Below, in pieces: positions 220 through 22,895 of a stretch of DNA of 22,895 nucleotides; within the stretch, counting starts at the first letter, position 1, and every line of letters starts with the position of its first letter. A program made the position numbers and the translations under genes. Source of the stretch: Gemmatimonadota bacterium (lineage in GTDB: Bacteria > GCA-2686955); the NCBI GenBank assembly GCA_002686955.1, contig NYZA01000228.1, positions 1 to 22,895 on the forward strand. Reading direction: 5' to 3'. A model generated the notes under the pieces. The model had not been told where the DNA came from. It saw only the letters and a program-made list of their open reading frames with translations, and made no database searches.

Positions 220-417
220 GTGAAGACGCTCACAGCGACCGACCTCAAGGTCCGTTGCCTGGCGCTTTTCGACGAGCTTGCCGAGACCGGAGTTGGGCTT
301 CTGATCACGAAGCGAGCACGGCCGGTGGCCCGTGTCTACTCTCCGGCCGCCGGTGAAGAGGATCCTCCCCAATTCACCCTCGCCGACAGCGTGGAGTGCT
401 TGAGCGAAATGATCTAG
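220..417 (+). CDS. Phd/YefM-family antitoxin, toxin partner not present
   Basis: A 65-residue protein starting at GTG. Its N-terminal half matches the Phd/YefM pattern: M-K-T-L-T-A-T-D-L-K, then LALFDELAETG, then LLITKRARPVARVY. In the family this part is the DNA-binding and dimerisation domain, and the C-terminal tail neutralises a toxin such as Doc, YoeB or a PIN RNase. The protein is slightly short for the family (about 75-90 residues) and ends in FTLADSVECLSEMI, where relatives usually continue for about ten residues. The stop codon TAG lies within the CTAG junction of the R1 repeat that follows. No toxin gene follows: the 148 bp after the repeat hold only short, unrecognised open stretches. 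It is either an orphan antitoxin or one whose partner was lost around the time of the repeat insertion. Family assignment is fairly secure. Confidence 0.75.
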   Translation: MKTLTATDLKVRCLALFDELAETGVGLLITKRARPVARVYSPAAGEEDPPQFTLADSVECLSEMI

Positions 418-596
418 CCCGCATTTCTCACCAACTGTCGTCGTGAGGCGGCGCAGATTCGTGCCCTGGCGGTGCTTCGCACCGTTTTGCGCGGAGGCGT
501 GCTGGTTGCACGTCGCACAAAGCGAAACGGGGGGAAGTGCTGCCAGGGTGCGGATATGCGCCGCCACAGCAGAAAGTTGGTGAGATATGCGGGCTA
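415..596 (+). repeat. R1 hairpin element, copy A
   Basis: A near-palindrome of 178 bp (core 417-594) with arms of about 60 bp. The left end reads GCCCGCATTTCTCACCAACT and the right end is its near reverse complement. The non-palindromic centre holds GCGGAGGCGT, a small hairpin CGTGC-tggtt-GCACG (498-512) and GTCGCACAA. The element sits between direct CTAG copies (414-417 and 594-597), so the empty site would be GATCTAGCGCC. Copy A defines the forward orientation. No protein-coding pattern is shared with the other copies. Confidence 0.85.
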
Positions 597-744
597 GCGC
601 CCCAATCCCCGGTCTTCGGGTGGTCACCGGCCCTGTGGACGCCCCTCGCGGGCGCCCGGAGAAATCCGTGCTCGTGACCCGCGATGCGAGGTCGGCCGAG
701 TACGATGTGACGATAGTGGGAGCCTGATAGAGGCGTTGCTCAAA

Positions 745-1290
745 TTAGATCCCGGCGCGCCGCGCAGGTGTCCCCGATTCGATTCCGAGCGCCTTCATTC
801 GACTTCTCAGAGTGGCTTCGGGGATGCACAGTGAGCGGGCCGCCGCCGTCTTTACGCCGCCGTGCATTTCCAGGGCTTGCCGGATGCGGGAGATCTCGTA
901 GCGGCGGACATCGGTCTTGAGCCCTAGGTCGGATAGAGCCATTTTCGACTTGGCCACGTCGGGCCGCTCTCGCATCCAGAGCTCGAGCTCTGATCTGCAC
1001 AGGGAGTGAGGAATCACGCGTCCAAGTGTTCGCGCGGCGAGCCGCTCCACGAAACCGTGCAGCTCTCTGATGTTTCCCGGCCATTGCCAGTTGCTCAGGA
1101 TCTTGATCGACCCGATGTCGAGCACCGGAGTGGCATCGAGGCCGAGTCTCTGTTTCGCACGTTGGAGCGAGACTGTCGTCAGTTCTTCCAGGTCTTCGAG
1201 CCTTTCCCTCAACGGAGGCACATCGATGGTGTGAGGGCGGATCCGCTTGGACTTGCGCCGATTCGCGAGCTCTCGCGATCTCGCGAGCTC
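745..1290 (-). pseudogene. C-terminal remnant of a sigma-54-dependent activator
   Basis: This frame encodes the last part of a bacterial enhancer-binding protein. Visible features are the post-ATPase segment HTIDVPPLRERLEDLEEL, the conserved W-P-G-N-I-R-E-L, and a Fis-type helix-turn-helix tail (ALEMHGGVKTAAARSLCI, then TLRSRMKALGI). The Walker A and B motifs, the GAFTGA loop and any sensor domain are missing. An in-frame TGA at 1291-1293 closes the frame upstream, and an 18-bp tandem duplication (1264-1299) lies at that breakpoint. Without the ATPase core it cannot remodel sigma-54 polymerase. It could at most be a DNA-binding fragment translated from a GTG at 1221, but decay is more likely because the piece upstream on the same strand is also broken. 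Confidence 0.75.
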
Positions 1291-1299
1291 TCACGATGC
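1264..1299. repeat. 18-bp tandem duplication at a deletion junction
   Basis: Two adjacent units, CGCGAGCTCTCGCGATCT and CGCGAGCTCTCACGATGC, differ at three positions. Each contains the palindrome GAGCTC. They sit exactly between the sigma-54 activator remnant and the TPR remnant, which suggests slippage or an illegitimate join there. Confidence 0.7.
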
Positions 1300-1301
1300 G
1301 G

Positions 1302-1898
1302 CTACGGCTTCGCCAGATCAGCGGCGAGCGATCTCCAAAACGCCCCTCGAACCCGATCTTCGACCAGTTGTCGGACCGCCAGAGACCGGGCCGCCTCGAT
1401 ATCTCCATCGGCGCGCAGCGCGAAGGAGTGCAGCAGTTCCAGTCGCCCGCGCGAAAACGGGTCCGCCGGAGTCGCACCGGATTCGAAGGCCGCCGCGATA
1501 TCCTGGATTGCCCTCCCCGGAACTCCCATCCGGAGCCATTCCCACGCCCTGGCCTCGGCAAGGTCCGCGTCATCGACCCGCCCCTCCGCGCTGCCACCGA
1601 GACGCGCGCCGGCGAGCGCTCCGATCGCCGCGGCACCTGTCACGACGGATGATTCGGCCACACGTATTGCTATCTCGCGCGCTTCACGCCATCCTCCGGA
1701 TTCCAGGAGCATCCGTTCCGGGAGCGTCGAAACCGAGATGTGGCCCGGGAAGCGGTCCAGCAGACGGGACATCATGCGCACTGCTTCGTCTTCACGGCCG
1801 ATTCGCCACAGCAGGTCCGCCCGTCTGATTGAGAGATCGGACTCGGAATTGACCGCCTCTATCGCAGACTGCGTAACGAGAGCATCATCAGTTGTCGC
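1302..1898 (-). pseudogene. TPR-like helical fragment, probably from the same broken regulator
   Basis: This open minus-strand frame is bounded by stops at both ends (TGA at 1899-1901 upstream). It encodes helical repeat-like sequence, for example ADLLWRIGREDEAVRMMSRL, then ESGGWREAREIAIRVAES, then ARAWEWLRMGVPGRAIQDIA and ELLHSFALRADGDIEAARSL. The alternating A/L/W pattern resembles TPR arrays. It is out of frame with the sigma-54 remnant downstream. Fusions of kinase, TPR and sigma-54 activator modules exist, so both pieces may derive from one gene that lost its central ATPase. It could also be a duplicated tail of the neighbouring kinase-TPR gene, but I see no strong match to that tail. 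Confidence 0.5.
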
Positions 1899-1932
1899 TC
1901 AAGGATCCCCCAGCAGTGCGGCCTGCCCCCTC

Positions 1933-2060
1933 CTACGGCAAGGAACGAACCGGCCCTCCGGATTCCACCCCCCGCGCCGCGGTTTCAAAGTAGCCGTTGT
2001 CGTCTTTGTCGTCCTCCCATGTCACGACGAAGTTTCCAATGAACAACATGATGCGATATG
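1933..2060 (-). pseudogene. fragment of a secreted W-E-D-D repeat protein
   Basis: The minus strand encodes GNFVVTWEDDKDDNGYFETA followed by ARGVESGG. This resembles one unit of the repeats (G-N-F-V-V-x-W-E-D-D-x-D-x-N-G-Y-Y-x-I-x-A-R-G) seen in many secreted proteins of environmental bacteria. Only one unit is present and no signal peptide leads into it. The frame does open at an ATG overlapping the kinase stop codon (2125-2127), giving a 64-residue ORF, but the first 27 residues look unstructured. I read it as a remnant. Confidence 0.4.
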
Positions 2061-2123
2061 CACGCGGCATAGTAGATCTCCGAGTACCTTGATGATCCGT
2101 ACGGGAGCATAACCCTAATGGAG

Positions 2124-5100
2124 TCATGGTCTTCCTTCGGATCGAACACCGGCGACCAATCGCCGCAGCTCTCCAACCTCACGCAGCGAGGCGAAGCTCG
2201 AGCGGTACGAACCCGAAGCGGGCAGACGCTCCACCTGGGCTTCGAAGATCTGGGCGGCCCGGATTGCGAACTCGCGAGCGGCTCCGAGGTCGAGAAGCTC
2301 CACGCAGGCGGTACCCGCCAGCACGGCGCCGGTCCACACCAGCCGCTGGGAGTCGATCCGGTCCGCGGTGTCGACCGCCCGCTTCGCGAGAGCGCGTGCG
2401 ATCGCGGGCTTGCCGGCTTCCAGATGCGTGCGCGCCTCCGCCAAGTCGGCGCGGGTCTCGATGTAGCGATCACCGGCGGATTGCGCCAAGCGCCTCGATT
2501 CCGCGAGCAGGTTGGCGGCGGACCGATCGGAGCCCCGAGGATCGGTGAGCGCCGCACGACTCAGCGCCAACTCGGCGGCCAACGCCGGAGAGCCCCGGGC
2601 GCATTCGGCGAGATCCTGTCGCTCGCAGAAGCGCAATCGCTCTCTTGCCTCTCCGGTGCGACCCAGCCGGGTCAAAGCCTCCGCCCAATGAAGAGCGGTC
2701 TCGATCATCGCGGGGCGCTCCCCCGTCTCCGTCGCCTGGCGCGCGGCCGACTCGAGCAGAAGGAGGGCATCTCGAAAATCCCCGAGAGCCAGACTGCACT
2801 GCCCGGCAACGGCGCCGACCTGTGATCGCTCCCCCACATCACCCCGACGCATCCGGTCGAGTCTACGCGCCTCGGTGAGGGCGCCGATCGCTTCCGTCCA
2901 TCCTCCGCAGCGGATCTCCAGTCGGATCCGTTCGAGGAGACAGGCCACGCGGGCGCTCGGGCCATGCTCCTCGGCCGCCGCCCGGAGCGCCGTGTCGAGT
3001 GCACTTCTCGCCTCGGTGCTCCGACCCAGCCGTCCCAGAATCCGAGCCCGCTCCCCCTGAGTCTGAGCAATCGCGCCCGTCAGAGCGGCCTTCTCGGCAA
3101 GCGCCGCGGCCTCGTCGGCGATGCCGAGCGCTTTCGCCTGGTCCCCCGTCGCTCCCACGATCGCCGCCTGCAGAGCGAGCGCCGTGGCCAGTGCATCGAC
3201 CCGATTCTGCTCCCGAAAGAGATCGACCGCCCCCTTGGCGTGGTCGCGCGCCGAGGGCCAGGCTCCAGCATGAAAGGCAACCTCCCCGAGCCCCAGCGTG
3301 CAGACCGCGCGGCCGTCGGCATGCCCGATCGATTCCGCCAACCCCAACCCCTCCGCGTACGTCCTCTCGGCTTCGTCGAGCCGTCCCGCCCGGCGACTCT
3401 GCTCTCCCAGCGCCGCCAGTACCGGAACCTCCATCGAGCGAACGCCCTCGGAGCGTGAAATGTCGAGCGCACGATTCAATGCGCTCCGCGCCGCGCTCAG
3501 ATCGTCGCGCTGCAAATGCACATAGCCGAGTGAGCAAAATGTGTTGCAGACTTGCAGAACCTGTCGCTGCGCTCCGAAGGCGGCCTCCGCCTCTTCCAGC
3601 GCGCGCCTGGCCCCCTCCAGATCCTGCGTGACGGAAAGGGCGGCGCCGAGCTCCGCCAGGGCGTGCATCCGCCCCTTAGCGATCTCCCGCTCTTCGCAGA
3701 TTCGAAGCGACTCCCGAATCAGGGGCAACGCCTCGTGCACTTCGCCGCGAAAACGATGGAATCGCGCCAACGAGCGGAGCGACGACGCCGTGATCTCCGG
3801 GTGCTCACGGATGCGCCGACTTTCTTCGATCGCACGCTCCAGGTGAACGCGCGCCTCTTCCATCGCGCCCCCTCGCATCAAGAGCTCGCCCAGAAGTCGC
3901 CGGGCCTCGGCCAAGGAGTAGCTCTGCTCCGATGTGGAGAGCAGCGCCACGGCCTCCTCGAGGTGGGCGCGCGCCGCCTCATTCTCCGCCCTCTGCATGC
4001 ACACGTGGGCCAGAAAGAGCAACGCTTTTCCGTGAAATTCCGTCGCTCCCTCGCGCCCCGCACGCTCGACGATTCCCACCGCCCGCGCCTCGGCCTCGTC
4101 CACGTGTCCCGTTTCGAACTCGAAGCGACACAAATCGATCAGCTCCGCGAGCGCCAATTCGCCCAGCTTCGCCGCCTCTCGATAGAGCCCGATCGCCTCC
4201 ACGAATCCCCAGCGCGCCGCCGCCTCTTCCGCGGCGCGGATCAGATGGGGCACCGCCTCCTCATCGCGACCCCCATCTCTGAGGTGGCGGCCGAGGGGAG
4301 CCGGCTGGCCCTCGCCGTGCAGAGATCTAGTGGCTTCGGCCAAGCGGCGGTGAAGTCGGCGCCGTCGCGCTTCCGAGATTGTCCGCGCGATCTCAGCGCG
4401 GAGTAGGGCGTGACGAAAGCGGAATCCGTCCCCCTCTTCGACCAAGATCCGGCGGCGAAGCAACCCGTCGAGAAGATCGAGCAGCGGGTCTTCGTCGAGA
4501 CCTGTCGCGGCCAGAAGCAGATCGAACGAGGGATGCGCGTAGGCGAGTGCGATCGCGCGAACCGCGAGAAGCTCATCCTCTCCCAGATCCCCCAGGCGCG
4601 CCGCCAACACGCTCGACAGCGTCCGGGGCACCGCATCCGGATCGAGCTGATCGGCAACCTCCAGCTCGCCCGACGCCGGATCCTCGCGAAGAGTGCGGTC
4701 GAGAAGAAGCCCGCGGATCAGCTCCTCGGCGAAGAAAGGGTTGCCACCGGAAACCTCGGCGACATGATTCGTCAGCTCCTCACTCGCCGCACCCTTCCCC
4801 ACGAGCGACTCTAGCATCCCCCGGAGCGACTCCCGGTCGAGAGGACGGAGTGGAATCGAGAGCAGATCGGGTCGCGATCGAAGCGCGTCGATCCCCGTCG
4901 AAATGCGATCTGAGTCGCGCAGCTCATGAGACCGCAATGTCGCGACCACCAAGAGCGAAAAGGCCCCTTTTCCCTCCCCGCCCGCGAGCGACAGAAGCTC
5001 ATCGAGCAGCGCGACGGTGCCTTCATCGGCCCAGTGGAGATCTTCGAGCTCGACCACGAGCCGGCGGCGGCGGCCGAGCTCCATCAGAAAAGAGGCGATC

Positions 5101-6437
5101 GATCGGGTCAGGGCGCGTTGAGCCTCGCGGGCGTGCAGGTCGGGCGTGGGGGGAAGGTCTTCGAAGCCCGGCAGGCCGAGCAGCTCCGGCGCCAGAGGAG
5201 CGAGCAGGCGACCCTGATCCCCCAGGAGGGCGCGCCTCTCCTCTTCCCCCATACGGCCGAGCAGCTTCTCGGCTCCCCGAAGCACCGCCGAAACCCCTTC
5301 GTAGGAAAGCCTGCTCTCTTGCCGGTGTACACCCCGCAAGGTGCGGAAACCCTCCCATCGAGCCATCTCCGAGAGCTCCGACGCCAACCGCGATTTCCCG
5401 AGTCCCGCCTCTCCCTCGATCAGCACGACCCCGCCGCGGCCCTCCCTCGCGCGCGCCAGCGCCGCCGCGATCCCCTCCACCTCACGCGCGCGTCCCGAGA
5501 GCACCGACCGGAAGGCGAACTCGGCCGGTTTCTCCAGCATCGCCGCGCCCCGCCAGGGCCCCACCGGCACGTCGGGCGCACTGCTCCCCAGCTCTTCCGC
5601 CACCCCGGCCAGAGCACGAAAGACCGCCTGTCCGGTCGGCGGACGCTCCGCCGGGGTCTTCCCCAAGAGGCGACCCAAGAGCTCGGCCAACGAGGACGGC
5701 GCCCACGCCGCGCCGCATTCCCGAAGATCGGGCGGACTCATCGCTAAATGCGCTTGCAGCAGAGCGGCGAGACTCTCCTGCGGAAAAGGCAGCCGCCCGC
5801 AGAGAGCCTCGAAGAGCATCACGCCGGCCGCATAGAGATCGGCGCGCGAATCGAGGTTCTTCTCGGCATTGATCTGCTCCGGCGCCATATAGGCCACCGT
5901 ACCGACCAGCAGGCCGCTGCGCGTCAGCCCCTGCGCCTCGGCGTGGTCCCGCGCCAGCCCGAAATCGGTCAGCTTGACCACCCCATCGCCGGTGACCAGC
6001 ACATTGCCCGGCTTGAGGTCTCGGTGAACGATCCCCTGCCCGTGCACATAGTCGAGCGCCGCGAAGATCTGTAGGAATGCCCGCAGAACCGACGCGCGCC
6101 GCGGCTCACCAGGGGGCTGATCCTCGAGCCAGGCGTGTAGATCGCATCCGCCGACCGCCTCCATCGCAAAATAGAGTCGGCCTTCGTCGTTTCCCATGTC
6201 GTATGCGCGGACGACATTCGGGTGCTCCAGCCGCGCCAGCGCCCGGAACTCACGCTTGAAGCGCATGAACTCTTCGCGCCCGATCGACCGATCGGAGCGA
6301 ATGACCTTCAGCGCGACCTCGTCCGGCCCGAGCCCGCCGCCCGACGCCCGGTACACCACCCCCATCTCGCCCCGACCGAATTCACCCCTGATTCGGTGGG
6401 GACCGATCTCTCTCGGACGTGCTGCTTTAGCGGACAA
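2124..6437 (-). CDS. Ser/Thr protein kinase fused to AAA ATPase and TPR array
   Basis: A 1437-residue cytoplasmic signalling protein, numbered from a TTG at 6437. Residues about 15-290 form a PknB-type kinase: glycine loop GRGEMG, catalytic Lys in VALKV (about 44), HRDLKPGN (138-145), DFG (158-160) and APE (185-187). A regulatory ATPase follows, with Walker A GEAGLGKS (342-349) and Walker B VVELEDLHWAD (about 461-471), as in large LuxR/STAND-like predicted ATPases. From about 720 onward there are many TPR-like helical repeats. All kinase and P-loop residues checked are present, so the protein should be active. The frame can be extended to an ATG at 6623, but that start overlaps the preceding gene by 76 bp and adds a low-complexity Gly/Arg stretch. 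No good Shine-Dalgarno sequence supports either start. Its substrate is unknown. Confidence 0.9.
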   Translation of the reverse strand: MSAKAARPREIGPHRIRGEFGRGEMGVVYRASGGGLGPDEVALKVIRSDRSIGREEFMRFKREFRALARLEHPNVVRAYDMGNDEGRLYFAMEAVGGCDLHAWLEDQPPGEPRRASVLRAFLQIFAALDYVHGQGIVHRDLKPGNVLVTGDGVVKLTDFGLARDHAEAQGLTRSGLLVGTVAYMAPEQINAEKNLDSRADLYAAGVMLFEALCGRLPFPQESLAALLQAHLAMSPPDLRECGAAWAPSSLAELLGRLLGKTPAERPPTGQAVFRALAGVAEELGSSAPDVPVGPWRGAAMLEKPAEFAFRSVLSGRAREVEGIAAALARAREGRGGVVLIEGEAGLGKSRLASELSEMARWEGFRTLRGVHRQESRLSYEGVSAVLRGAEKLLGRMGEEERRALLGDQGRLLAPLAPELLGLPGFEDLPPTPDLHAREAQRALTRSIASFLMELGRRRRLVVELEDLHWADEGTVALLDELLSLAGGEGKGAFSLLVVATLRSHELRDSDRISTGIDALRSRPDLLSIPLRPLDRESLRGMLESLVGKGAASEELTNHVAEVSGGNPFFAEELIRGLLLDRTLREDPASGELEVADQLDPDAVPRTLSSVLAARLGDLGEDELLAVRAIALAYAHPSFDLLLAATGLDEDPLLDLLDGLLRRRILVEEGDGFRFRHALLRAEIARTISEARRRRLHRRLAEATRSLHGEGQPAPLGRHLRDGGRDEEAVPHLIRAAEEAAARWGFVEAIGLYREAAKLGELALAELIDLCRFEFETGHVDEAEARAVGIVERAGREGATEFHGKALLFLAHVCMQRAENEAARAHLEEAVALLSTSEQSYSLAEARRLLGELLMRGGAMEEARVHLERAIEESRRIREHPEITASSLRSLARFHRFRGEVHEALPLIRESLRICEEREIAKGRMHALAELGAALSVTQDLEGARRALEEAEAAFGAQRQVLQVCNTFCSLGYVHLQRDDLSAARSALNRALDISRSEGVRSMEVPVLAALGEQSRRAGRLDEAERTYAEGLGLAESIGHADGRAVCTLGLGEVAFHAGAWPSARDHAKGAVDLFREQNRVDALATALALQAAIVGATGDQAKALGIADEAAALAEKAALTGAIAQTQGERARILGRLGRSTEARSALDTALRAAAEEHGPSARVACLLERIRLEIRCGGWTEAIGALTEARRLDRMRRGDVGERSQVGAVAGQCSLALGDFRDALLLLESAARQATETGERPAMIETALHWAEALTRLGRTGEARERLRFCERQDLAECARGSPALAAELALSRAALTDPRGSDRSAANLLAESRRLAQSAGDRYIETRADLAEARTHLEAGKPAIARALAKRAVDTADRIDSQRLVWTGAVLAGTACVELLDLGAAREFAIRAAQIFEAQVERLPASGSYRSSFASLREVGELRRLVAGVRSEGRP

Positions 6438-6547
6438 GGAGCGGCCTGTTGGTTGGGGATCGACTCGCGCGGAAATGCCAATCCTAGCCGATCGACCGCC
6501 CCGTCCGTCCCCGGAGCCAGCCCCGTCCCGTGCCCATTTTGTTGCCT

Positions 6548-7879
6548 CTACTCCGTCGCCACCACGCCGATCCCCGGCGCCCAGATGATCCACTGGCCCC
6601 AATCCGGAATCTCGAGCTCCCAATCACCATTCAAGTCGGTCAGCTCGGGACCGACTACCTGGATCGGGATCGTATCGATCCGCACGGCATAGACACTGAT
6701 CTCTTCCATCGCGACACCATTTACTTCGATCGCTCCGTCGGCGACCATCACTCCCTCATCGCCGACTTCCGCGCTCCGAACATTCACTATATTCGGAATC
6801 TCGAGGCTGTAGACACCCGGCAGCACATCGTCGAACGCGAAGATCCCGGCCGAATCGGTGCGGTCACGATAGGTGCAACCGACCGTTCCATCCGCCAAGA
6901 GCACCGGTCGGTTCACGAAGGGCTCACCGTCCACAAAAACATCGCCACCGACCACTCCGGCACCCGAGAGCCCGTACGTGAAAGCGTTGTAGAGAAGCTG
7001 CGGGTCGCTACGCTGCAGCGGAAGCCCCGGCGTGTACTCGTGGGGAGAGGAGAAGTAGATGCCGACTCCCTCGCCCCGCTCGACAAAGACCTCGACGCTG
7101 TTCGAATCGGGCTCGCCCATGGCGACGATTCGCCCATCCAGCATCAGATCGTCGCTCCATGCCCGCGAAGACTCCCGTTCCGCCCGCAGTTTCTTCGTTA
7201 CGCCGAATGGCGTTCCGATCGGCAAACTGTCGGCGAGCTCCGGCGGCACATTTGCATCGAACGACATCAAAACGGTCGCATCGTGGACTTGATCGAAGAT
7301 CCGATTCGACGTATCGATTCCGAAGATCGGCCCCAAATGGCGATTGTCGCTACCACGCGATCCTCCAAGAACGAGGCCAGTGCCGACGATTGTCGTCCCC
7401 TCACGCATCTGCATCGTCTCTAGCGCGATCATCTCACGGGGCGAGAACTCCTGATCGGTCCAGACCGGTGACGCGATCCAGATCGCATGCGGGTCCGCCG
7501 CGCGCAGATCCGCCAAGGTGAACGACGCCACCCTCTCCAGACGCCGATCAAAAACCAAGGGCAGATCGCCAAAGGTCCGCCACTCCGTCGTGAGCTCATC
7601 GATCCAATTCGTCGTAGCTGTGTCGACAATCGAAGACTTCACGACGACCACGCGAACCGTGTCGACGGACTCTTGCGGTTGCGGCCGTGTCGCCGCCAGT
7701 CTCATCGCGATCTGCGTCGCGGCATCGCGGCCGAAGATGCGCAACGCGGCGCGGGACCGTGCTTCGATCGGAACATTGTTCGAGCCGATCGCTGATGTGC
7801 GGCTGGTCACCGTCATCCCTACCAGAACCGCCAGCGCGGCGGCCGAGATGGCGGCATTCATGCGATTCGACTCTTTCAT
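6548..7879 (-). CDS. secreted protein: amidotransferase-like (ThuA-type) domain plus carboxypeptidase-regulatory-like domain
   Basis: A 443-residue protein with a signal peptide (residues 1-30, hydrophobic core AAISAAALAVLVGM). The start is supported by GGAGG seven bases before the ATG. Residues about 72-175 resemble class-I-glutamine-amidotransferase/ThuA-like folds: VDTVRVVVVKS, then DLRAADPHAIWIASPVW, an acidic helix starting REMIALE, and GTTIVGTGLVLGG. I cannot identify a catalytic Cys-His-Glu set, so binding rather than catalysis is possible. Residues about 308-365 (GDVFVDGEPFVNRPVLLADG, then TDSAGIFAFDDVLPGVYSLE) match a carboxypeptidase-regulatory or prealbumin-like beta-sandwich. The tail ends in a Trp-rich segment with no recognised sorting signal. 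It lies just upstream of the kinase on the same strand and downstream of a truncated paralogue. Precise function is unknown. Confidence 0.75.
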   Translation of the reverse strand: MKESNRMNAAISAAALAVLVGMTVTSRTSAIGSNNVPIEARSRAALRIFGRDAATQIAMRLAATRPQPQESVDTVRVVVVKSSIVDTATTNWIDELTTEWRTFGDLPLVFDRRLERVASFTLADLRAADPHAIWIASPVWTDQEFSPREMIALETMQMREGTTIVGTGLVLGGSRGSDNRHLGPIFGIDTSNRIFDQVHDATVLMSFDANVPPELADSLPIGTPFGVTKKLRAERESSRAWSDDLMLDGRIVAMGEPDSNSVEVFVERGEGVGIYFSSPHEYTPGLPLQRSDPQLLYNAFTYGLSGAGVVGGDVFVDGEPFVNRPVLLADGTVGCTYRDRTDSAGIFAFDDVLPGVYSLEIPNIVNVRSAEVGDEGVMVADGAIEVNGVAMEEISVYAVRIDTIPIQVVGPELTDLNGDWELEIPDWGQWIIWAPGIGVVATE

Positions 7880-8030
7880 TGGGCCTCCAAACGGTCAGGT
7901 TTCAACGGCCGAGGATAATCGACATTTGAACCGTTCTCAATCAAAGCGCCTGCCCAGGATCCGTCACCCAATAAGCGCTTCGCCATGCGCCTCTTGGCCC
8001 TATCCTTAGCCACTCGCACCGATTTGATGC

Positions 8031-8585: not shown

Positions 8586-8707
8586 CGGGAGCTCCCCAGC
8601 CGGCTCTGCCCGGGACCGCGATTCGGCCCCGCGCACGGACGCTCTTCACGATTCCATCGTCCGCGTTCGAGAGAAAAATGAGCGGCACTTCCGCCCTCCC
8701 GGGGGGA

Positions 8708-8819
8708 TGGGGGCGATATGCGCCTTCGCCTCTCGATTCCGAGAGCCGACGCAAGTCGTCCCGGCGGCTGCGCGCGCGGTGGGGGCTCGGTCGCCGCTGC
8801 GTTTGAACACGTGTGCGAT
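8708..8819 (+). repeat. R2 dispersed repeat, copy 1
   Basis: Similar to 22595-22705 along its whole length: GGGGGCGATATGCG at the start, GAGCC(G)ACGC in the middle, a GCGCGCG run, GGGGCTCGGTCG, and the best-conserved end TTTGAACACGTGTGCGAT. Similarity stops right after GCGAT. It lies in the 407-bp stretch between the divergent genes at 8585 and 8993. The rest of that stretch shows nothing else recognisable beyond an AT-rich patch with TAATAT at 8892-8897 that could be a -10. Confidence 0.65.
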
Positions 8820-8992: not shown

Positions 8993-9043
8993 ATGCGCAA
9001 TGCACTGGTCTTGGTCTCGCTCTTGGCGGGGGTCGGTTCCTAG
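8993..9043 (+). pseudogene. signal-peptide mini-ORF ending at R1 copy B
   Basis: After GGCGGAG at 8976-8982 comes an ATG and MRNALVLVSLLAGVGS, a typical Sec signal-peptide start (Arg-Asn, then a hydrophobic core). A TAG at 9041-9043 then ends the frame inside the CTAG junction of R1. This looks like the start of an exported protein whose body has been lost. Beyond the repeat, the frame from 9224 stays open for 42 codons and closes at a TGA overlapping the next gene's ATG. It would join only if the TA bases belong to the element rather than to a target duplication. Confidence 0.35.
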
Positions 9044-9223
9044 CCCGTATTTCTCACCAACTTTCGTCGCGAGGCGGCGCATCTCCGCACCCTGGCGCCA
9101 CTTCCCCCCGCTTCGTTTTGTGCGACGTGCAACCAGCACGCCTCCGCGCGAAACGGTGCGAAGCACCGCCAGCGCACGAATCTGCGCCGCCTCGCGACGA
9201 AAGTTGGTGAGAAATGCGGTCTA
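9041..9223 (-). repeat. R1 hairpin element, copy B (inverted)
   Basis: This copy is the reverse complement of copy A in its asymmetric centre. It has the longest arms of the four: about 39 bases at each end pair with only two mismatches (ATTTCTCACCAACTTTCG and onward). The core is 9043-9221, flanked by direct CTAG copies at 9040-9043 and 9221-9224. It stands 125 bp upstream of the first double beta-helix gene and may separate that gene from an older promoter. Confidence 0.85.
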
Positions 9224-11769: not shown

Positions 11770-11807
11770 TCGCACCTCACCATCCCGAAAACGACGCCGG
11801 CCCCATG

Positions 11808-11860
11808 GCTGCCGATCCGGCCTCGGCTGGACCGCCACCGCTTTTGAACACGTGTGCCGG
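11808..11860 (+). repeat. R2 dispersed repeat, partial copy
   Basis: Only the conserved end of R2 is clear: GGCCTCGGCTGGACCGCC followed by CGCTTTTGAACACGTGTGC. It fills part of the 112-bp gap between the two beta-helix genes and ends about 20 bp before the second gene's start. ACACGTGT is itself an 8-bp palindrome. Whether it acts as a regulatory site here is unknown. Confidence 0.5.
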
Positions 11861-11881
11861 AGATCTCATAGGGAGCAGGCC

Positions 11882-14746: not shown

Positions 14747-14956
14747 TCTTTCCTGGGCACTCCGAACTGCTGGCGGGCGGAAAGGCTCGAATGCCGGCGC
14801 GAGATCTTCCTCCAGGAGATGCCGGGTTCGACGTTTGGATCGATATCGGTCCGCCGCTGCGCAGTTCCTTACTATCGAAGCGTTGGCCGCAGTGAGCGTC
14901 TCTTCCGGTCTTGCTCCAAAAAGGCTACGATCGCTTCGAACAATGCAGGAGCCGCC

Positions 14957-15669: not shown

Positions 15670-15672
15670 CCG

Positions 15673-17565
15673 ATGATGAGCACACTTCCCATTCTCGCCC
15701 TTGCGATCCTCGCCGCCGCCGAGGACCCGTTCTGGAACTGCACATCGGTGACCTGGTCCGGCGATCGGGCGGTCGGTGGGGGCGGCGACCTGGTCGTGGC
15801 CGGCACTCCGGAGGGCCCGCGAATCGAGATGCGGATCGAAGGCCTGGTTCGAGATCTGGCGGGAGGCGATCGATGGGTGGCGGTGGCCGGCGACTGGGGC
15901 GGCACCCATCTGCTGCGAGGGCCCGATCTCGAGCCTGTCGCCACGATTCCGAGCGAAGACGCCGGCCTGGCGGTCGATCTCGCCGGCGATCTTCTGGCGA
16001 TCGCCGAGGGCACCGCTGGCGTCAGCTTCTTCGCACTCGATCGAGATGCGCCGCGCCTGCTCCGGCGGGAGCGCCTCGACGGGGCCGAGGTGGTGGATGT
16101 CGAGATCGAGGGCGGCGCGCTCTGGGCCGCCGCCTCGGACGGCCGGGTGTTCCGCTTCGGGCCGCAAGGCGATCGGAGCTCTTGGCGCATCGCCGGAAGT
16201 CCGTCGCTACCGCCATGTCTCGTCGCCACCGAGGCGGGGATCGCGGCGTGTCGAGGCGGTCGCGCACTGCTGCTGGACTCCGGCGAGCTGGTCGATGTCT
16301 CGGGTCCGATCCAGGGGGGCGAGGGCCCTTGGCTGGCCGCGGGACCCGCCGGGCTGCTGCACTGGCCCGATCCCAGCGGGCGCCCCCGAGATCCTCTGGC
16401 TCACGACCCGCACTCGGTCTGGGACCTCGAGCTGAGGGGCGATCGGATCGCTACCGCCTCGGGCGGGGGCGGGCTGCTGATCTGGCACACGCCCGAGAGA
16501 GGCGGAGCACCGCGGCCGCTGGGGTCGCTTCGACCGGTCGGACACAGTCGATCGAGCTCCCCGCCGGTTCCGGCCGATCCTGTCTCCGCGCCCTGGGGGC
16601 CGATGCTGGTCGAGATCGGATCGGTCGCGCTCCCCGGCAATCCAGTCGCGGTGGTGGTCGATGAGGGGCGCGCCTATGTGGCCGCTCAGACTCGAGGTCT
16701 GCGCGCGGTCGATGTGTCGAACCCGTCCCGCCCCACCGAGATCGGCGCCTACGATCCGGTCGAAACCCCGGCGTACCTCAACGATTTGGTGCTGCACCAG
16801 GGCCATGTCATCGCCGCCTGCCATGCCCTCGACGACTGGTACTATTTTCGCGTCTTCGACGTTCACGCCGGACCCGACCCGCTCTTCATCGGCGGCGAGG
16901 AAAGCGGCTCGGTGTTCTGGATCTACGGCATCGACGCCGGCGGCGATCGTCTCTATCTGAGCGGAGCGACGGGCTATGGGGGTAACAACGACGTCCTGTG
17001 GACCTTCGACATCCGCGAGATCGCCGAGCCGCGTAGTATCGGCCGGTACGGTTTCTCCGCCTCGGGCACGTACTGGCAATCGGTGGCCGTCGACCCCGAC
17101 ACCGGTGGAGCTCTGATCTACGCCGTGCACTCGCCCTGGCGTCTCTACGGCCTCGACGCCACCGTCCCCAGCGACCCCCTCCATGTTGACGAACGCTGGG
17201 CGGCCCTCGCGACCGACATGGAGGCCGAGGGGGACCTGTTGCACCAGGCACCGTACTTCTGGAGCGGTCCCGGCTACCGGGTGCTGGCGATCGACCATAC
17301 CGGCAACCTCGACCTGGAAGCGGAAATCGACCTCCCCGGTGGTGAGATGGAGCGGCTGGCAGTACACGACCGAACCGTCGCCGGAGTGGGCCAAGACCAT
17401 CTCTGGCTGCTCTCGGTCACCGACCCAGAGGCGCCTCAGCTCCTGGCCGATCCGGTCTCGATCCCCGGCGCCAGCGACGTGTTCCTCGATTCGGACGGCT
17501 ACATCTACGTCACGGTCGCGGAGGAAGGGCTGCGCATCTTCCGCTTGATCGACCCGCGCCGTTGA
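15673..17565 (+). CDS. exported beta-propeller protein with LVIVD-type repeats
   Basis: A 630-residue protein with a hydrophobic N-terminus (STLPILALAILAAA) that lacks positive charges, so the signal peptide is atypical. The second half carries clear LVIVD-like blades: GNPVAVVVDEGRAYVAAQTR, then GLRAVDVSNPSRPTEIGAYD, and a closing blade DGYIYVTVAEEGLRIFRL. The first half is a looser propeller (DLAGDLLAIAEGTAGVSFFA, then GGALWAAASDGRVFRFGPQG). Such proteins are extracytoplasmic and of unknown ligand. It starts 3 bases after the MNT gene but has no functional link to it that I can see. Its 3' end overlaps the convergent beta-helix pseudogene by 56 bp. No catalytic motif is recognisable. Confidence 0.8.
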   Translation: MMSTLPILALAILAAAEDPFWNCTSVTWSGDRAVGGGGDLVVAGTPEGPRIEMRIEGLVRDLAGGDRWVAVAGDWGGTHLLRGPDLEPVATIPSEDAGLAVDLAGDLLAIAEGTAGVSFFALDRDAPRLLRRERLDGAEVVDVEIEGGALWAAASDGRVFRFGPQGDRSSWRIAGSPSLPPCLVATEAGIAACRGGRALLLDSGELVDVSGPIQGGEGPWLAAGPAGLLHWPDPSGRPRDPLAHDPHSVWDLELRGDRIATASGGGGLLIWHTPERGGAPRPLGSLRPVGHSRSSSPPVPADPVSAPWGPMLVEIGSVALPGNPVAVVVDEGRAYVAAQTRGLRAVDVSNPSRPTEIGAYDPVETPAYLNDLVLHQGHVIAACHALDDWYYFRVFDVHAGPDPLFIGGEESGSVFWIYGIDAGGDRLYLSGATGYGGNNDVLWTFDIREIAEPRSIGRYGFSASGTYWQSVAVDPDTGGALIYAVHSPWRLYGLDATVPSDPLHVDERWAALATDMEAEGDLLHQAPYFWSGPGYRVLAIDHTGNLDLEAEIDLPGGEMERLAVHDRTVAGVGQDHLWLLSVTDPEAPQLLADPVSIPGASDVFLDSDGYIYVTVAEEGLRIFRLIDPRR

Positions 17566-18876
17566 GCCCCCCGGCCTCGGTTCGCTCCAACCAGGCACCG
17601 TTGTCCGGCCCTCCATACGCCCCGATATCGGATCGCACTCCGTTTTCGAACCAGGGCGGCCACCAGGGGTGGCTGTCGTAGATCTGATCCGCCAGCACCG
17701 GGTCGCCCGCGTCGATCGCCGGAGAGCCCGGGCCGAGCAGGTAGTCGAAACCCCGCTCCGAGAAGAAGCGGGGGTGGCCGTCGAAGTTCCCCGTGCCGGG
17801 CCATCCCCCTTCGATCAAGGAGTACGAGATGTCGAAGTAGCCGGTTCCGGCGTCGATCTGCTCCCTCAGGTTGCCCCAGATGATGGTGTTGACGATCGTG
17901 GCGACTCTCGATCGGAACTCGAAAGATAGCCCGGCTCCGGCATTCGCGCTGTTGCCGGTGATCGTGCAATTGTCAAGCGAGCTCCAGTCGCTGCTCAGCC
18001 AGACCCATCCCGCCGTGTCCGCCCGGTTCCCCTCGATGATGCAGCCCGTGAAATCGGAGTACTCCAGATGAGCGCCGCCGCCGATGGCCGAAGCCACGTT
18101 GTCGCGCAGGATGCACATGTGCGGCTCCGACGAACTCCCAGCAACGCCGCCTCCATCGGCTCCCGCTCGATTGCCGACGAAATCGCAATGCTCGAAATCG
18201 GTGCTGGAGATCATCGCTCCACTTCGCTCAAGTACATGGCTCCGCCGCTCCCGGCCCTGTAGTTGAGACTGAGGAGGCAGTCGGTAAAGCTGGGTTCCGC
18301 CCGATCGATGTAGACGCCGCCGCCCACACTGTCGCTTTGGTTGGCGACGATGCGGCAGTGCTCGATCCGCGGCAGTGCACCGAGACGACAGATGATACCG
18401 CCGCCCATGGGCGCCGCACCGCCGGTGACGGTCAGACCGCGGATGGTTGGGTTCTTGTCGAATGTGTTGCCGATGTCGATGACCGGGCCCGCGCCCTGCC
18501 CGTCGATGACCGTCGCCGCCACCACGGCGGAATCCGCCGGATCGCTCCCGGTGAGCAGGATCTCTCGGGCGCCCAGCTCGATCTCCGATTCGGTGTAGGT
18601 GCCGGGCGCCACGAGAACCGTGTCGCCATCGCAGACCCCCGCCAACGCCGCCTGGATGCTGGGGAGATCCTCCGGCACGCGGATCGATCCCGGCCGCACC
18701 GGCTGGTCGCAACCGATCTCCAGGCTGCCCCTATCAGTTCCGCCCTCGCCCGCGCCGATGCAGGGAGAGACGGTGGCCAGCCGCAGGTCGAGCTCGCCGC
18801 CGCATTCGGGATTGCGGAAGCACGGATCGGCATCGAGGGTCCCCGTTCCCGGCCACCCGCCCTCGGGTTGAAGTGA
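17510..18876 (-). pseudogene. beta-helix protein, 5'-truncated and frameshifted
   Basis: A third member of the double beta-helix family, on the opposite strand. The open frame begins abruptly after a TGA at 18877-18879, inside the end of a first module (EGGWPGTGTLDADPCF, then LDLRLATVSPCIGAGEGG). It continues with a full second cap (VPEDLPSIQAALAGVCDGDT). After GGAMYLSEVER the frame stops at a TGA near 18211, while the rungs continue one frame over from ATGATCTCCAGC (M-I-S-S-T-D-F-E-H-C-D-F) to the family ending RSDIGAYGGPDN. A single missing base explains the break. The signal peptide and first module are absent. The ATGA overlap at the break could in principle allow reinitiation, but a sequencing error or true decay is simpler. 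Confidence 0.75.
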
Positions 18877-19020
18877 TCAGCCCGTCGAATTGTAGCGGCG
18901 GCCGTAGAGTGAGGGAGGAGCGGTGCGCGCGATCCAACGACCTTGCGCCGGAGTAGCCGGAGCACGCCGATCGCGATCGTCTTTCCGGCACGGGGGCCCG
19001 CCTTCTCCACAACCTCGCCC

Positions 19021-19150
19021 CCCGCGCACGCGTTCAGAAGCAGCCTGATCGAGCCGAAATTGGGCGCGCGGCGACCGCGCATGCGTGGCTTGGGCGGTCG
19101 AGTGCTCGAAAGTGCACAGCGCCCCCATCTTCTTCCCCGACCGGGGAGGC
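19021..19150 (-). repeat. R2 dispersed repeat, copy in reverse orientation
   Basis: Closely matches 22387-22515 (roughly nine bases in ten), for example CGCGCACGCGTTCA, GCAGCC(T/G)GATCGAGCC, TTGGGCGCGCGGCGA, CGCGCATGCGTGGCTTGGG, and GGGGAGGC at the far end. Read on the minus strand it ends in TTCTGAACGCGTGCGCG, the R2 signature. It occupies the 384-bp stretch between the beta-helix pseudogene and the nucleotidyltransferase module. Bases 18877-19020 hold nothing recognisable. Confidence 0.75.
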
Positions 19151-19229
19151 GCTTGAAGCGGCATCGGAGGTTGCCGGATTCGGCGTCTGTAGGGGCGGCG
19201 CCTGCGAGAGGGGTCGAGCATTCACTTGC

Positions 19230-19250
19230 TATACTTACCCCCTAAGCATA
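19230..19250. promoter_or_regulatory. inverted repeat over a -10 box, candidate toxin-antitoxin operator
   Basis: Arms TATACTTA (19230-19237) and TAAGCATA (19243-19250) are complementary at seven of eight positions around a CCCCC spacer. The left arm contains TATACT, a good -10 sequence. The right arm is followed at once by the Shine-Dalgarno AGGA (19250-19253), seven bases before the ATG at 19261. A protein bound here would cover both the -10 and the ribosome entry site. No convincing -35 is visible. The region stands out as AT-rich against its GC-rich surroundings. Confidence 0.55.
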
Positions 19251-19260
19251 GGATTACAGC

Positions 19261-19713
19261 ATGGAACTTCCACGAGATGTCCGCGAGCGTTTTCGAGAGC
19301 ACGGACGTGAGGGCGGCCGAGCTCGAGCGGCGCGCATGAGCTCCGCAGACAAGGTGGCGATCGCCCGCCGCGCGGCCGTCTGTCGCTGGACGCGGGAGCG
19401 CTTCGGCGCCTCCAGCTTCGCGGCTCTCGGCTTGCCGGGGGGAGAGATCGTCGACGCAGGCCTCGCTGACCTGGCAGCCGATAAAGAAACGCCGGAGAGT
19501 CTATTGGTGTCGCTGGCGGCCCCACGTCTTCGGCGAGAAGGGGTTCCACTGGCACGGGTCAACGACAAGCCCGAGAAACGTCTCTACGGGATGCTCTCGG
19601 AGAGCGAAGGAGATCTTGCTCACGCTCGCTACAACGCCTACCTGAGACAGATTGTTTCCTTTGCGGACGCCTGCGCGCTGGCACGGATAGATCGGAATCG
19701 ATGTGCGACGTGA
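19261..19713 (+). CDS. basic antitoxin-like protein paired with a nucleotidyltransferase
   Basis: A 150-residue protein with a strongly basic N-terminus (FREHGREGGRARAARMSSAD, then KVAIARRAAVCRWTRERFG) that suggests nucleic-acid binding. The C-terminal part is helical (PESLLVSLAAPRLRREGVPL, then EKRLYGMLSESEGDLAHARY, then YLRQIVSFADACALAR). I recognise this arrangement as the usual upstream partner of AbiEii/DUF6036-type nucleotidyltransferases in environmental genomes, though I know of no established name for it. It overlaps the next gene by 11 bp, and an inverted repeat sits on its promoter. Both facts fit an autoregulating antitoxin. That role is an inference; no experimental counterpart is known to me. 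Confidence 0.65.
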   Translation: MELPRDVRERFREHGREGGRARAARMSSADKVAIARRAAVCRWTRERFGASSFAALGLPGGEIVDAGLADLAADKETPESLLVSLAAPRLRREGVPLARVNDKPEKRLYGMLSESEGDLAHARYNAYLRQIVSFADACALARIDRNRCAT

Positions 19714-20236
19714 GCTGACGCTCGAAAGGTTGCAGGAGCTCATGCGGCAGCTCGCACTCTCCGCGCCCGGCGGCGATTCCTATCGCGTCTATTTGGTGGG
19801 TGGCGGCACCGCGGTCCATGCAGGATGGAGGGAATCGACGATCGACGCCGACCTTCACTCCGATCAAGATGCGGTCTTTCGTGATATCCAACGGATCAAG
19901 GAGGCTCTTTCGCTGAACATCGAGTTCGCTCGGCCGGAGGATTTCGTCCCCCCTCTGACAGGCGCCGGTAACCGACATATTTTCATCGAGACCATCCGAA
20001 ACGTGAGCTTCTATCACTACGATCCCTACTCGCAGCTCCTTTCGAAAGTGATCCGTGGATTTCGGCGCGATCTGTTGGACGCTGAGCAGTTCGTGAGATG
20101 TGGAATGGTCGATTTGGCGAGCTTCCGAAGCCTCGTCCACCAGATCCCGGAGTCGATCTACGCGAAGTATCCCACCCTGTCGCGAAAAGCCGTGCTTGGA
20201 GCAATCGATGCTTTCGCGCGAACGCTATCGCTCTAG
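19703..20236 (+). CDS. AbiEii/DUF6036-like nucleotidyltransferase, probable toxin
   Basis: A 177-residue protein from a GTG at 19703 that overlaps the preceding gene. The nucleotidyltransferase signature is YRVYLVGGGTAVHAGWREST followed by IDADL: a GGG loop and then D-A-D, where the two Asp bind metal. Downstream are FIETIRNVSFYHYDPYSQLL and SKVIRGFRRDLLDAEQFV, with the conserved K-x-x-R-G-x-x-R-D-x-x-D arrangement of AbiEii/MenT-like enzymes. Studied relatives (AbiEii, MenT) add nucleotides to tRNA or otherwise block growth, with the upstream gene protecting. Both the size and the two-gene order fit a toxin-antitoxin or phage-defence module. The substrate cannot be read from the sequence. 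A decayed ATPase gene and R1 copy C follow directly on the opposite strand. Confidence 0.75.
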   Translation: MRRELTLERLQELMRQLALSAPGGDSYRVYLVGGGTAVHAGWRESTIDADLHSDQDAVFRDIQRIKEALSLNIEFARPEDFVPPLTGAGNRHIFIETIRNVSFYHYDPYSQLLSKVIRGFRRDLLDAEQFVRCGMVDLASFRSLVHQIPESIYAKYPTLSRKAVLGAIDAFARTLSL

Positions 20237-20239
20237 AAA

Positions 20240-20605
20240 ACACCGGGGATCGTCGAAGCTGACATAGGTTCGGTCCGCGTCACTCAGCCCGCATTATTCA
20301 CCGAAACGCGTAGCGATCCGGCGCAGATCCGTGCGTGGCAGGTGCTTCGTGCCCTTGCCGCGCGGAGGCGTGATAGCACCCATGTCGCACAAGCGGCGAG
20401 GGTGGGAAGTGCCGGCCACGTGCGGATATGCGCCGGCGTAGTAGCGTTTCGGTGAATAATGCGGGCTCAGGTGCCGCGGCAATGCGGTCTTGCCGACCTG
20501 TCGTGCGCCGGTGAGCAGGCACACGGGGAACTAGGCAGAGCTTCGAAGGAAGTGGGGCTCCAGGGTTTTGGTGAGGTACAGCGGATCCTCGCGGGCTGCT
20601 GCCAA
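20240..20605 (-). pseudogene. N-terminal fragment of a DUF4143-type AAA ATPase, split by R1 copy C
   Basis: On the minus strand, DPLYLTKTLEPHFLRSSA is followed by an in-frame TAG, then FPVCLLTGARQVGKTALPR and H-L, where R1 begins. On the other side of R1 the frame resumes as SDADRTYVSFDDPR. Removing R1 and one copy of TCA joins the two parts exactly in frame, giving the Walker A region (GARQVGKT) and following strand (TYVSFDDP) of the AAA/DUF4143 family. The gene then breaks off near 20240, at the end of the nucleotidyltransferase gene. Three separate lesions (internal TAG, R1 insertion, 3' loss) make it a clear pseudogene. Intact relatives have about 400 residues. Confidence 0.8.
20287..20466 (+). 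repeat. R1 hairpin element, copy C
   Basis: A 180-bp core in the same orientation as copy A. The ends GCCCGCATTATTCACCGAAA and onward pair perfectly for 23 bases, yet differ from copies A and B at several positions, so both arms changed together. The centre keeps GCGGAGGCGT and GTCGCACAA. It is flanked by CTCAG on both sides (20283-20287 and 20466-20470), read as a TCA or CTCAG target duplication. It interrupts the ATPase fragment described separately. Confidence 0.85.
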
Positions 20606-20796
20606 TCAGCAAACTAGTTGCAAAACAGCCGTCCCGCCGCCGCCCGATCACCGGATCGCCCGGCCCTCTTCCATCGAAACCGATGGCATTGGGAGCGATG
20701 GGAAAGCTTGACGGGAATTGACCGCTTGGTCCATGTTTCCATCATAACTGATGGCATCGAGAGCGATGGCGAACCCTGGCCAGGCCGCCAACCCAC

Positions 20797-21336
20797 GATC
20801 ATCAGCAAACTCGTTGCCGATTGGTGGCGGCGGCGCTGCGACGGAATCCGGACCTGGAAGCTCAATGGTTCCCCGTGGTGTTCGGGGAAGAGAGCTACCA
20901 GGTGGCGACGGTAGGAGAATTGTGGTTGGAAGCGTTGCTACACGCCAGTGATGCGACGGACGGCGACCACTGGGGCAAGATACGTCAGGAGCTGCTGCGA
21001 GAGCCCGATGACCAACGCCTGCACGACGCAGCCTTGGCCCGGCTGCTCGATTTCGCGGACGAAAGGGGGAAACGCCTCTTCAGCGCGCCCGAAGCCTCGA
21101 GGCGCGAGACGAATCAGACACTTCCCTTGCTGGTGCGCCTCGCCGCCGCCGCGCCGGACCAGACCCTGAGGCTCCTGGAGCGCTTGCCGGTGGAATGCGG
21201 TTTCGAGCCTCTCGCCGTTGCGGTGGCTCTGGATCTGGAAGAGGAGGTGCGGGCGCCCGTGGAGATGGTGGAGGTGGCGCGAGACCGGCTGGATGATATT
21301 CGCGACGCACGGAGAGCCGCCCGCCAAACCAGATGA
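20797..21336 (+). pseudogene. fragment of a large P-loop ATPase
   Basis: The frame encodes TRCRLVAAALRRNPDLEAQW, then FPVVFGEESYQVATVGELWL, then LLREPDDQRLHDAALARLLD and FADERGKRLF. This resembles the stretch between Walker A and Walker B of STAND/AAA-type ATPases (the helix after the P-loop, W-x-P-V-V-F-x-E-E-x-Y, and the helix before the Walker B strand). The P-loop itself is lost: only QQTRCR stands where G-x-G-K-T-R-L would be. After K-R-L-F the sequence jumps to an unrelated helical stretch (TLPLLVRLAAAAPDQTLRLL), so the Walker B strand is gone too. It ends at a TGA (21334-21336). The preceding bases 20618-20796 hold nothing I can recognise. An ORF with a TTG start at 20821 exists, but a functional ATPase is excluded. 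Confidence 0.6.
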
Positions 21337-22344
21337 GGTCCTTTCCAGATCCGTCGATTCTCCGGGCTCGGTGGGTGGGAGGGCCAAGGACCGAATGGGG
21401 GCGCTGGAACCGCTATCCACCGGTACCAACAGGATATCAATGGACTATACTACCAAACGGTATTTGCGAACAATCTCGCCATAGGCACCACCGACGAGTA
21501 CCAAATCGTCTATCCCGGAGAAGGTGGCGCCATATCGTGGGTGTCCAGCAATGGACCGGTGCGTGTTACCAACAACACATTTGTGGGAAATCAGGCCTTT
21601 GATGTTCGAAATACCAGACCGGGCGATGGGGCTGCGATCTTCATTGGAGTGGCCGGATTCTGCGGCAATAACGTGATATCTCAGAACTCCGGCGGGACCG
21701 CGGTGGCCATCGCAAGCCGAGCGACGCAGTGGGGCTTTCAGCTCTTTGATGACAATGCGGACGGTGAGTACTCACGCTACGGGTTCTTGCAGCCAAGTGA
21801 TGCCTTGGGTGCATCCGAGTTCGTTGCTCCGGAAGAAAAGGACTTTCGAATCGCGAGCGGTTCAGACGCGATCGATGCCGGGCATGTCGATCTCCTCGAT
21901 GCCGATGGAACCCGCTCCGATATTGGAGCCTACGCGGTGGATCAGCGCTTTCCGGTGCACGCGTACATCTCTCGGGCGGAGTCGCTTGTTGCGCTCGGTC
22001 AAGTGGAAGAGTGGGCCTTCGCCCTAGACAACATCCACACGGAAGCGGTTGGGGTGACCATGACGATCGAATTCCGGAAGGACGGACACCAGCTCCGGAC
22101 CTTTTCCCGCTCGCTGCGGCTCGAGCCGGAGCGAGTGTGGCGAAGATCGGTTCCACTCGTGATTCCGCCAAAGGTCGGAGAAGGTGCTGTGTCGATACGC
22201 GTTTTGCTCAACTCCGGGTGGCAGGACGAGTGGCGCGGCCGTCTTGTTTCTTCGCCGACCCCAAGGGCTGAGGCGTCGCGACATCCGTCATCCCCGATTC
22301 GGTGCGGAACGCCGGCCGATGGCGCGCGGTCGAATCCGATGTAG
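21337..22344 (+). pseudogene. 5'-truncated beta-helix protein with C-terminal beta-domain
   Basis: Reading continues in the same frame immediately after the TGA that ends the ATPase fragment. It gives GGWEGQGPNGGAGTAIHRYQ, then DINGLYYQTVFANNLAIG, then GEGGAISWVSSNGPVRVTNN and NTFVGNQAF, which are beta-helix rungs. The helix closes with SGSDAIDAGHVDLLDADGTR and SDIGAY. A domain of about 110 residues follows (EEWAFALDNIHTEAVGVTMT and onward) that resembles an immunoglobulin-like or CARDB-type domain. No start codon, signal peptide or N-terminal cap is present. The rungs lack the regular Cys pairs of the other beta-helix genes here, so this belongs to a different subfamily. A GTG at 21541 could start a shorter product, but it would begin in mid-helix. 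Confidence 0.65.
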
Positions 22345-22384
22345 GCCTTGCTCGTCTCATGGCCTTCCAGCGGTAGTGCGCCCT

Positions 22385-22515
22385 CCCCCGCGCACGCGTT
22401 CAAAAGCAGCCGGATCGAGCCGGAATTGGGCGCGCGGCGATCGCGCATGCGTGGCTTGGGCGGTCGAGTGCCGGATTACACCCAGCGCCCCCACATCTTC
22501 CCGGATCGGGGAGGC
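22385..22515 (-). repeat. R2 dispersed repeat, reverse copy of an inward-facing pair
   Basis: Nearly the same sequence as 19021-19150. Read on the minus strand it ends in GCTTTTGAACGCGTGCGCG. It starts 40 bp after the beta-helix fragment and faces a forward copy at 22595-22705. The 421 bp from 22345 to 22765 hold only this pair and short unremarkable spacers. Confidence 0.75.
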
Positions 22516-22594
22516 TGCGCTACCGGGGCTCGATGGGTGAGATCCAATTCTGCCGAGCGCCCAATCTCCAGGAAGAGCCGGAGGGAAGAGGAGT

Positions 22595-22705
22595 TGGGGA
22601 GGCGATACGCGTCATCGCCGCTCCCGATTCGCGAGCCACGCGAGCTCCAGCGGCCGCGCGCACGACAGGGGCTTGGTCGCGGGCGCTTTTGAACACGTGC
22701 GCGAT
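22595..22705 (+). repeat. R2 dispersed repeat, forward copy
   Basis: Matches 8708-8819: GGGGAGGCGATACGCG near the start, GAGCCACGCGAG, GCGGCCGCGCGC, GGGGCTTGGTCG, and the conserved end GCTTTTGAACACGTGCGCGAT. Together with the reverse copy at 22385-22515 it forms an inverted pair with signature ends at the outside, about 320 bp end to end. Confidence 0.7.
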
Positions 22706-22765
22706 AGGCCGCGTTGTGCTTCGGGCGGCATTCGACCCGCCTACTCGGGCGATCGAGCTCCTGAC

Positions 22766-22895
22766 TAGCCCCGATTTCTCACGAGATTCCCTAGCGAGAC
22801 CGCGCAGGTTCTTGTCCTGCCGGTGCTTCGTGCCGGTTCGACGCGGAGGCGTAGTGGTGCTACGTCGCACAAGGCGACACGGTGCGAAGCATCGC
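22766..22895 (+). repeat. R1 hairpin element, copy D (cut by the window edge)
   Basis: Starts at CTAG (22765-22768) with GCCCCGATTTCTCACGAG, then the R1 pattern CGGTGCTTCGTGCCGG, GCGGAGGCGT, hairpin CGTAG-tggtg-CTACG (22850-22864), GTCGCACAA and GGTGCGAAGC. The right arm is mostly beyond the window. The orientation is that of copy A. The arm sequence differs from A, B and C, making it a third sequence variant. Confidence 0.8.

Follow-up and report, generated by a model that had tools for sequence, protein, structure and literature searches.

The stretch of DNA analyzed here (the window; 22,895 nt, contig NYZA01000228.1 of assembly GCA_002686955.1, from a bacterium of the Gemmatimonadota) contains a palindrome of about 185 bp, which we call R1. 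Four copies of it (A to D) had been predicted, and all of them are present at the following positions.

414 to 597, + strand: copy A with its target duplications (element 418 to 593, ends CCCGCATTTCTCACC...; CTAG at 414 to 417 and 594 to 597)
454 to 560, + strand: covariance model match of copy A, 70.2 bits
491 to 520, + strand: core hairpin of copy A, GCGGAGGCGT-GCTGGTTGCAC-GTCGCACAA
9040 to 9224, - strand: copy B with its CTAG duplications (element 9044 to 9220, core 9118 to 9147)
9078 to 9184, - strand: covariance model match of copy B, 55.5 bits
20283 to 20470, + strand: copy C, of a second end class, CCCGCATTATTCACC (element 20288 to 20465, core 20362 to 20392)
20283 to 20287 and 20466 to 20470: 5-bp duplication CTCAG of copy C
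20324 to 20432, + strand: covariance model match of copy C, 58.6 bits
22765 to 22895, + strand: copy D, cut by the contig end (element from 22769, core 22843 to 22872, stem GCGTAG/CTACGT)
22805 to 22895, + strand: covariance model match of copy D, 43.7 bits

A short Phd/YefM-like antitoxin frame (220 to 417) ends in a TAG stop shared with the CTAG duplication of copy A, and a truncated reading frame (8994 to 9044, MRNALVLVSLLAGVGS and a stop) precedes copy B. The window also contains a 109-nt direct repeat (19019 to 19127 and 22385 to 22493, 89% identical), which is not R1 and may be a further repeat of a mobile or regulatory kind. A 59-nt sequence with the common word TTTGAACACGTG(T/C)GC occurs three times (8761 to 8819, 11802 to 11860, and 22647 to 22705), in two cases before or between beta-helix-like genes.

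Copies A, B, and C have fold energies of -136 to -141 kcal/mol (z of -14 to -16), equaled by none of 200 shuffled sequences. The apical stem reads GCGTGC/GCACGT in A and B and GCGTAG/CTACGT in D, so the compensated change described in the original prediction is real, and the flanking bases that it called nearly invariant (GCGGAGGCGT and GTCGCACAA) are identical in all four copies. The arms had been described as complementary, which is exact for copy C (TATTCACCGAAACGC/GCGTTTCGGTGAATA) but not for copy A, where there is one mismatch in the TTCTCACC arm (the right arm is AGTTGGTGAGATATGC). An alternative hairpin proposed for copy C turned out to be the ordinary stem, GGCGTG/CATGTC, kept with G-U wobbles and an 8-nt loop; in the relatives of this copy, L203 and L204, the apical stem is GGCGTGG/CCCACGTC. 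The change of the outer arm between A/B and C (TTCTCACCAACT versus TATTCACCGAAACGC) had been read as covariation of a fold, but what changes there is the class of terminal inverted repeat, one class with 4-bp and the other with 5-bp duplications. Three or four copies are too few to tell whether paired changes reflect true covariation or a switch between transposon ends; the sets of 45 and 65 elements described below separate the two.

A similarity search of the 4.28-Mb draft genome found about 40 places similar to the palindrome, giving more than 35 copies beyond A to D. Many are at contig ends, where a repeat that interrupts the assembly would be expected to lie. The pattern of terminal inverted repeats (CCCGCATTTCTCACC or CCCGCATTATTCACC) matched 115 times with at most one mismatch, against once in the reversed control. 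Elements of the A/B class are flanked by 4-bp target duplications of the form YTAR, mostly CTAG, with TTAG/TTAG at L009, L200, and L201 and CTAA/CTAA at L016. The duplications are exact in 13 of 18 full insertions of this class in the genome (shuffled mean, 7.9; P = 0.001). Three 5-bp duplications were found in the class of copy C: CTCAG at copy C itself, CTGAG at L203, and TTGAG at L204. The elements are thus short and multicopy, with terminal inverted repeats and target-site duplications of 4, 5, or 6 bp by class (the 6-bp class is described below). Because they have such ends, duplications that vary between sites and match within a site, and dozens of copies, the palindromes are nonautonomous DNA transposons (miniature inverted-repeat transposable elements [MITEs]). 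The difference between the arms of A/B and C is therefore mostly not RNA drift. Terminal repeats are symmetrical because the transposase binds both ends, so a joint change of the two does not argue for an RNA fold.

Two 56-bp derivatives (L199:210-265 and L200:200-255) consist of the two terminal repeats only and have the same deletion junction at different sites. Since they lie at different sites and one of them (L200) has TTAG on both sides, the transposon ends seem to be enough for movement. A cut-and-paste (DDE-type) transposase acting in trans would have moved the MITEs. Pairing of ends at 1 to 3 kb in the draft genome and three Geobacter-type genomes found no autonomous transposon with either end type; draft assemblies often miss repeated transposons, and a related autonomous element, though helpful, is no strict requirement for a MITE. 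An IS1380-type transposase (PF13701) was considered as the mover and is absent from this genome and from one other genome of the phylum.

The same genome has a second palindromic repeat, R2, with ends GAGCCTGTTGCGCAT (L007:2541-2710, L149:1336-1504, L148:~50-154, and L158:1-50). R1 copies are located at the terminal CTAG of R2 in three places, and an R2 copy with CTAG at its border matches the R1 covariance model weakly (L007:2582-2670, E = 1.4e-6).

The core motif, GCGGAGGCGT-N(8-14)-GTCGCACAA, was found in at least 100 genome-contig stretches, mainly from Geobacter, Desulfuromonadales, and Desulfobacterales; five matches that seemed to be chance matches in genes (L072, L081, L097, L107, and L141) were excluded. 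The inner arms around the motif align across elements, and a covariance model built on the inner 106 positions recovers all four copies in the window. In a first set of 45 diverse elements, double changes occur in 26 of 32 pairs and 91.3% of cells are paired. The covariation score is 0.512, compared with 0.183 ± 0.010 for column shuffles and at most 0.139 with slid partners. In a second set of 65 model matches from genome searches, 30 of the 32 pairs have double changes and the score is 0.625 versus 0.182, although this set counts for less because its alignment was fitted to the model structure. The internal loops are nearly fixed, with GCG-G-A on the 5' side and G-C-ACxAA on the 3' side. In the first set, the invariance of the motif is by construction, the set having been found with it; in the second, A49 and G90 are conserved in 100%, GCG in 91 to 98%, and ACxAA in 92 to 97% of the elements, and G-C or A-U often takes the place of the G-U pair in the apical stem. 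Compensatory change and homology of the core are shown, and it is these inner 106 nt or so that provide the evidence for a fold.

Of 60 genomes from one Geobacter-related family, 54 have matches to the model, with as many as about 65 copies per genome. Of 290 genomes sampled across the domain, 13 have matches, and these belong to more than ten families. The single further genome from the family to which the window belongs gave no match. This patchiness suggests transfer. No match was found in phages and plasmids; viral contigs gave one, against the at least 100 stretches in genomes. The ends around the core differ. In Desulfobacterales and many Geobacter genomes, it lies between GTTTCCATCC... 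ends (the GTTTCC class). This class has 6-bp duplications with the consensus TANNTA, exact in 22 of 43 cases, and a mean longest common stretch of 5.02, compared with 2.94 ± 0.15 after shuffling (reached in 0 of 300 shuffles). A further class has GTTGTTCAAAAA-type ends (L110, L119, L130, and L256), and Geobacter relatives have a short form in which neither ends nor a target duplication signal can be recognized. Judged by sequence comparison, the core is a hairpin family, apparently conserved in structure, that outlasts both its own sequence and the surrounding transposon ends in many bacterial lineages. The central 106 nt or so is a separate module, recurring in MITEs with other ends and without ends in Geobacter relatives.

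Among 68 dereplicated elements folded on both strands, 65 had the more stable structure on the GGAGG strand, with a mean advantage of 10.3 kcal/mol (P = 6e-12). This strand was still better in 62 of 68, by 9.2 kcal/mol, when the core was swapped for a neutral hairpin to leave the arms alone, and DNA folding parameters again favored it in 65 of 68. G-U outnumber A-C mismatches 146 to 23 in a model-based count, with the structure predicted on the GGAGG strand; a geometry-only count gave more G-U in 31 elements and more A-C in 26. Since the G-U excess depends on that predicted structure, it is the folding energies that support the strand preference. By these predicted energies, the core fold is conserved as the structure of one strand. 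The idea of a functional folded RNA or folded DNA thus fits the center, which covaries and is strand specific, but not the outer arms, which are transposon ends.

These results bear on a simpler account, in which R1 is a plain MITE whose complementarity comes only from common descent and from hairpin-templated correction (quasipalindrome conversion), the fold itself being free of constraint. The outer arms are indeed transposon ends, and the coreless 56-bp derivatives between target duplications make the core seem unneeded for transposition. Conversion, however, should erase asymmetric loops and give perfect pairs, whereas the asymmetric loop bases are nearly fixed. The asymmetry of about 10 kcal/mol between the strands would likewise not arise from such correction, and the center is common to elements with unrelated ends in more than ten families. 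We consider this account improbable. Selection would instead act on a folded single strand.

Part of the core family appeared in the 2009 genome paper of Geobacter metallireducens, as 24 "predicted short RNA elements" (Aklujkar et al., PMC2700814). The palindrome at their center, GRCGTAGCGCTGCTACGCC, matches the core described here (GGCGTAGCAGCGCTACGTC) as its reverse complement. They are intergenic and near lysine/arginine genes, as here. They are reported in Geobacter and Desulfotalea only, and transposon ends, duplications, covariation, and strand analysis do not appear in the available text of that paper. The Chunjie MITE of Geobacter uraniireducens, as summarized in the available part of a review (PMC10969869), is 178 to 235 bp long, with terminal and direct repeats, in 38 copies and 57 partial copies. 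Our guess, from the description in the review and not from sequence, is that Chunjie is the GTTTCC class; the review's account of it describes no folded core common to different end types. Neither source, in the text available, describes a folded center shared across end types, covariation, or a strand preference, and literature searches with sequence words returned nothing relevant. Correia elements and QMITE2 of Coxiella are likewise short, with terminal repeats, target duplications, and a strong hairpin but no transposase. Unlike in those, one structured center recurs here with several unrelated ends in distant lineages. The MITEs are the ordinary part of the finding, and the structured, strand-specific center across lineages and end types is the unusual part.

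Elements of the short Geobacter form lie with their right end directly against the stop codon of an opposite-strand gene in 39 cases, compared with 3 mirror cases (P = 6e-9), with a lower effective number because some of the sites are orthologous. Orientation was counted by class, since a pooled count (26 to 3) is biased by the longer left side of the GTTTCC class. There was no such bias in the GTTTCC class (6 to 4) or among the copies of the window's own genome (about even). Conserved sites include the 3' end of argF and the 3' end of a gene with a nifD-like C terminus. The element or a remnant of it is present at about 7 of 30 argF loci; most of the others have a short argF-argG junction without it, a pattern that indicates gain or loss of the element at a fixed gene junction. 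Behind argF at L050:1640-1850, the hairpin is accompanied in tandem by an incomplete second copy whose apex has been lost. Another site may also be conserved: at least seven Geobacter-type genomes have a model match about 35 to 45 nt from a distant argF paralogue, which has about 28% identity and may be pyrB (G056:C12:450566, G061:C21:111196, G071:C11:256144, G072:C114:136552, G074:C32:58568, G094:C47:37875, and G096:C2:17422).

The constant placement of the element at stop codons and within operons such as argF-argG would fit an mRNA 3'-end hairpin (a terminator, a stabilizer, or an analogue of intercistronic REPs) acting in the transcript of the upstream gene. However, the more stable strand is the template strand of that gene and is absent from its mRNA, which has the worse-folding strand. 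This explanation is also at odds with the orientations in the GTTTCC class and in the window's own genome, and we regard it as quite unlikely. A functional RNA made from the GGAGG strand, a regulatory or processed hairpin dispersed by hitchhiking in MITEs, accords with covariation that includes G-U wobbles, with the much better RNA folding of one strand, with the conserved sites behind argF and the nifD-like gene, and with the earlier annotation of the Geobacter form as short RNA elements in the text cited above (PMC2700814). Rfam gave no match at the gathering threshold, and none of the weak matches below it is credible. By the 39-to-3 count in Geobacter relatives, the strand that folds better runs antisense to the preceding gene, so such an RNA would need a separate promoter. 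As a complete explanation, it is less probable than not but the most serious competitor.

A GGAG before a small bulged hairpin, strand specificity, location at gene 3' ends, and a short form without target duplication also recall REP-like elements mobilized by a RAYT/Y1 transposase, and Y1 genes are present in 11 of 12 carriers. Against this, the core was found by pattern or model at none of 30 Y1 loci, its copy number is independent of the Y1 number across 60 genomes (rho = -0.02), and other forms of the element have target duplications. With no core at those 30 loci and no correlation of copy number, the REP/RAYT link is largely refuted and very improbable.

The attC sites of integrons are imperfect hairpins right behind a stop codon, with the template strand as the functional strand. 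The short Geobacter form resembles them in all three respects: an imperfect hairpin, its place behind a stop codon, and the template strand as the folding strand. It differs in that the apex is conserved rather than the ends and in that it lies at scattered chromosomal genes, with no cassette array seen; two classes of the family, moreover, have transposon-type duplications. The attC pattern RYYYAAC/GTTRRRY was not seen by eye in the ends GTTTCC...GGAAAC and CCCGC...GCGGG.

Taken together, MITEs of several end types carry a strand-specific folded core, a picture to which we give a probability of roughly 60%. As to the acting form of the core, we tentatively put a single DNA strand, folded and recognized by a DNA enzyme, slightly ahead of a separately transcribed RNA, with the remaining probability left to an aid to the mobility or stability of the palindrome. 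The lean toward DNA comes from the position of the better-folding strand in Geobacter relatives, on the template strand and outside the mRNA of the gene. More speculatively, and with considerable doubt, the core may be a guest element, a folded single strand recognized on one strand only and repeatedly repackaged between unrelated transposon ends. In Geobacter relatives, it would have spread without target duplications to sites behind stop codons, with the template strand as the one that folds, an arrangement also known from attC sites.

Bacterial MITEs are commonly regarded as nothing more than dead transposon ends. In this family, a single folded center outlives several kinds of ends and reaches distant lineages, and it is the pairing that is kept, not the sequence. 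This makes the idea of a structured passenger in mobile DNA testable. It also offers a cause to seek behind dozens of unexplained intercistronic hairpins in Geobacter and its relatives, including those behind argF and the nifD-like gene.
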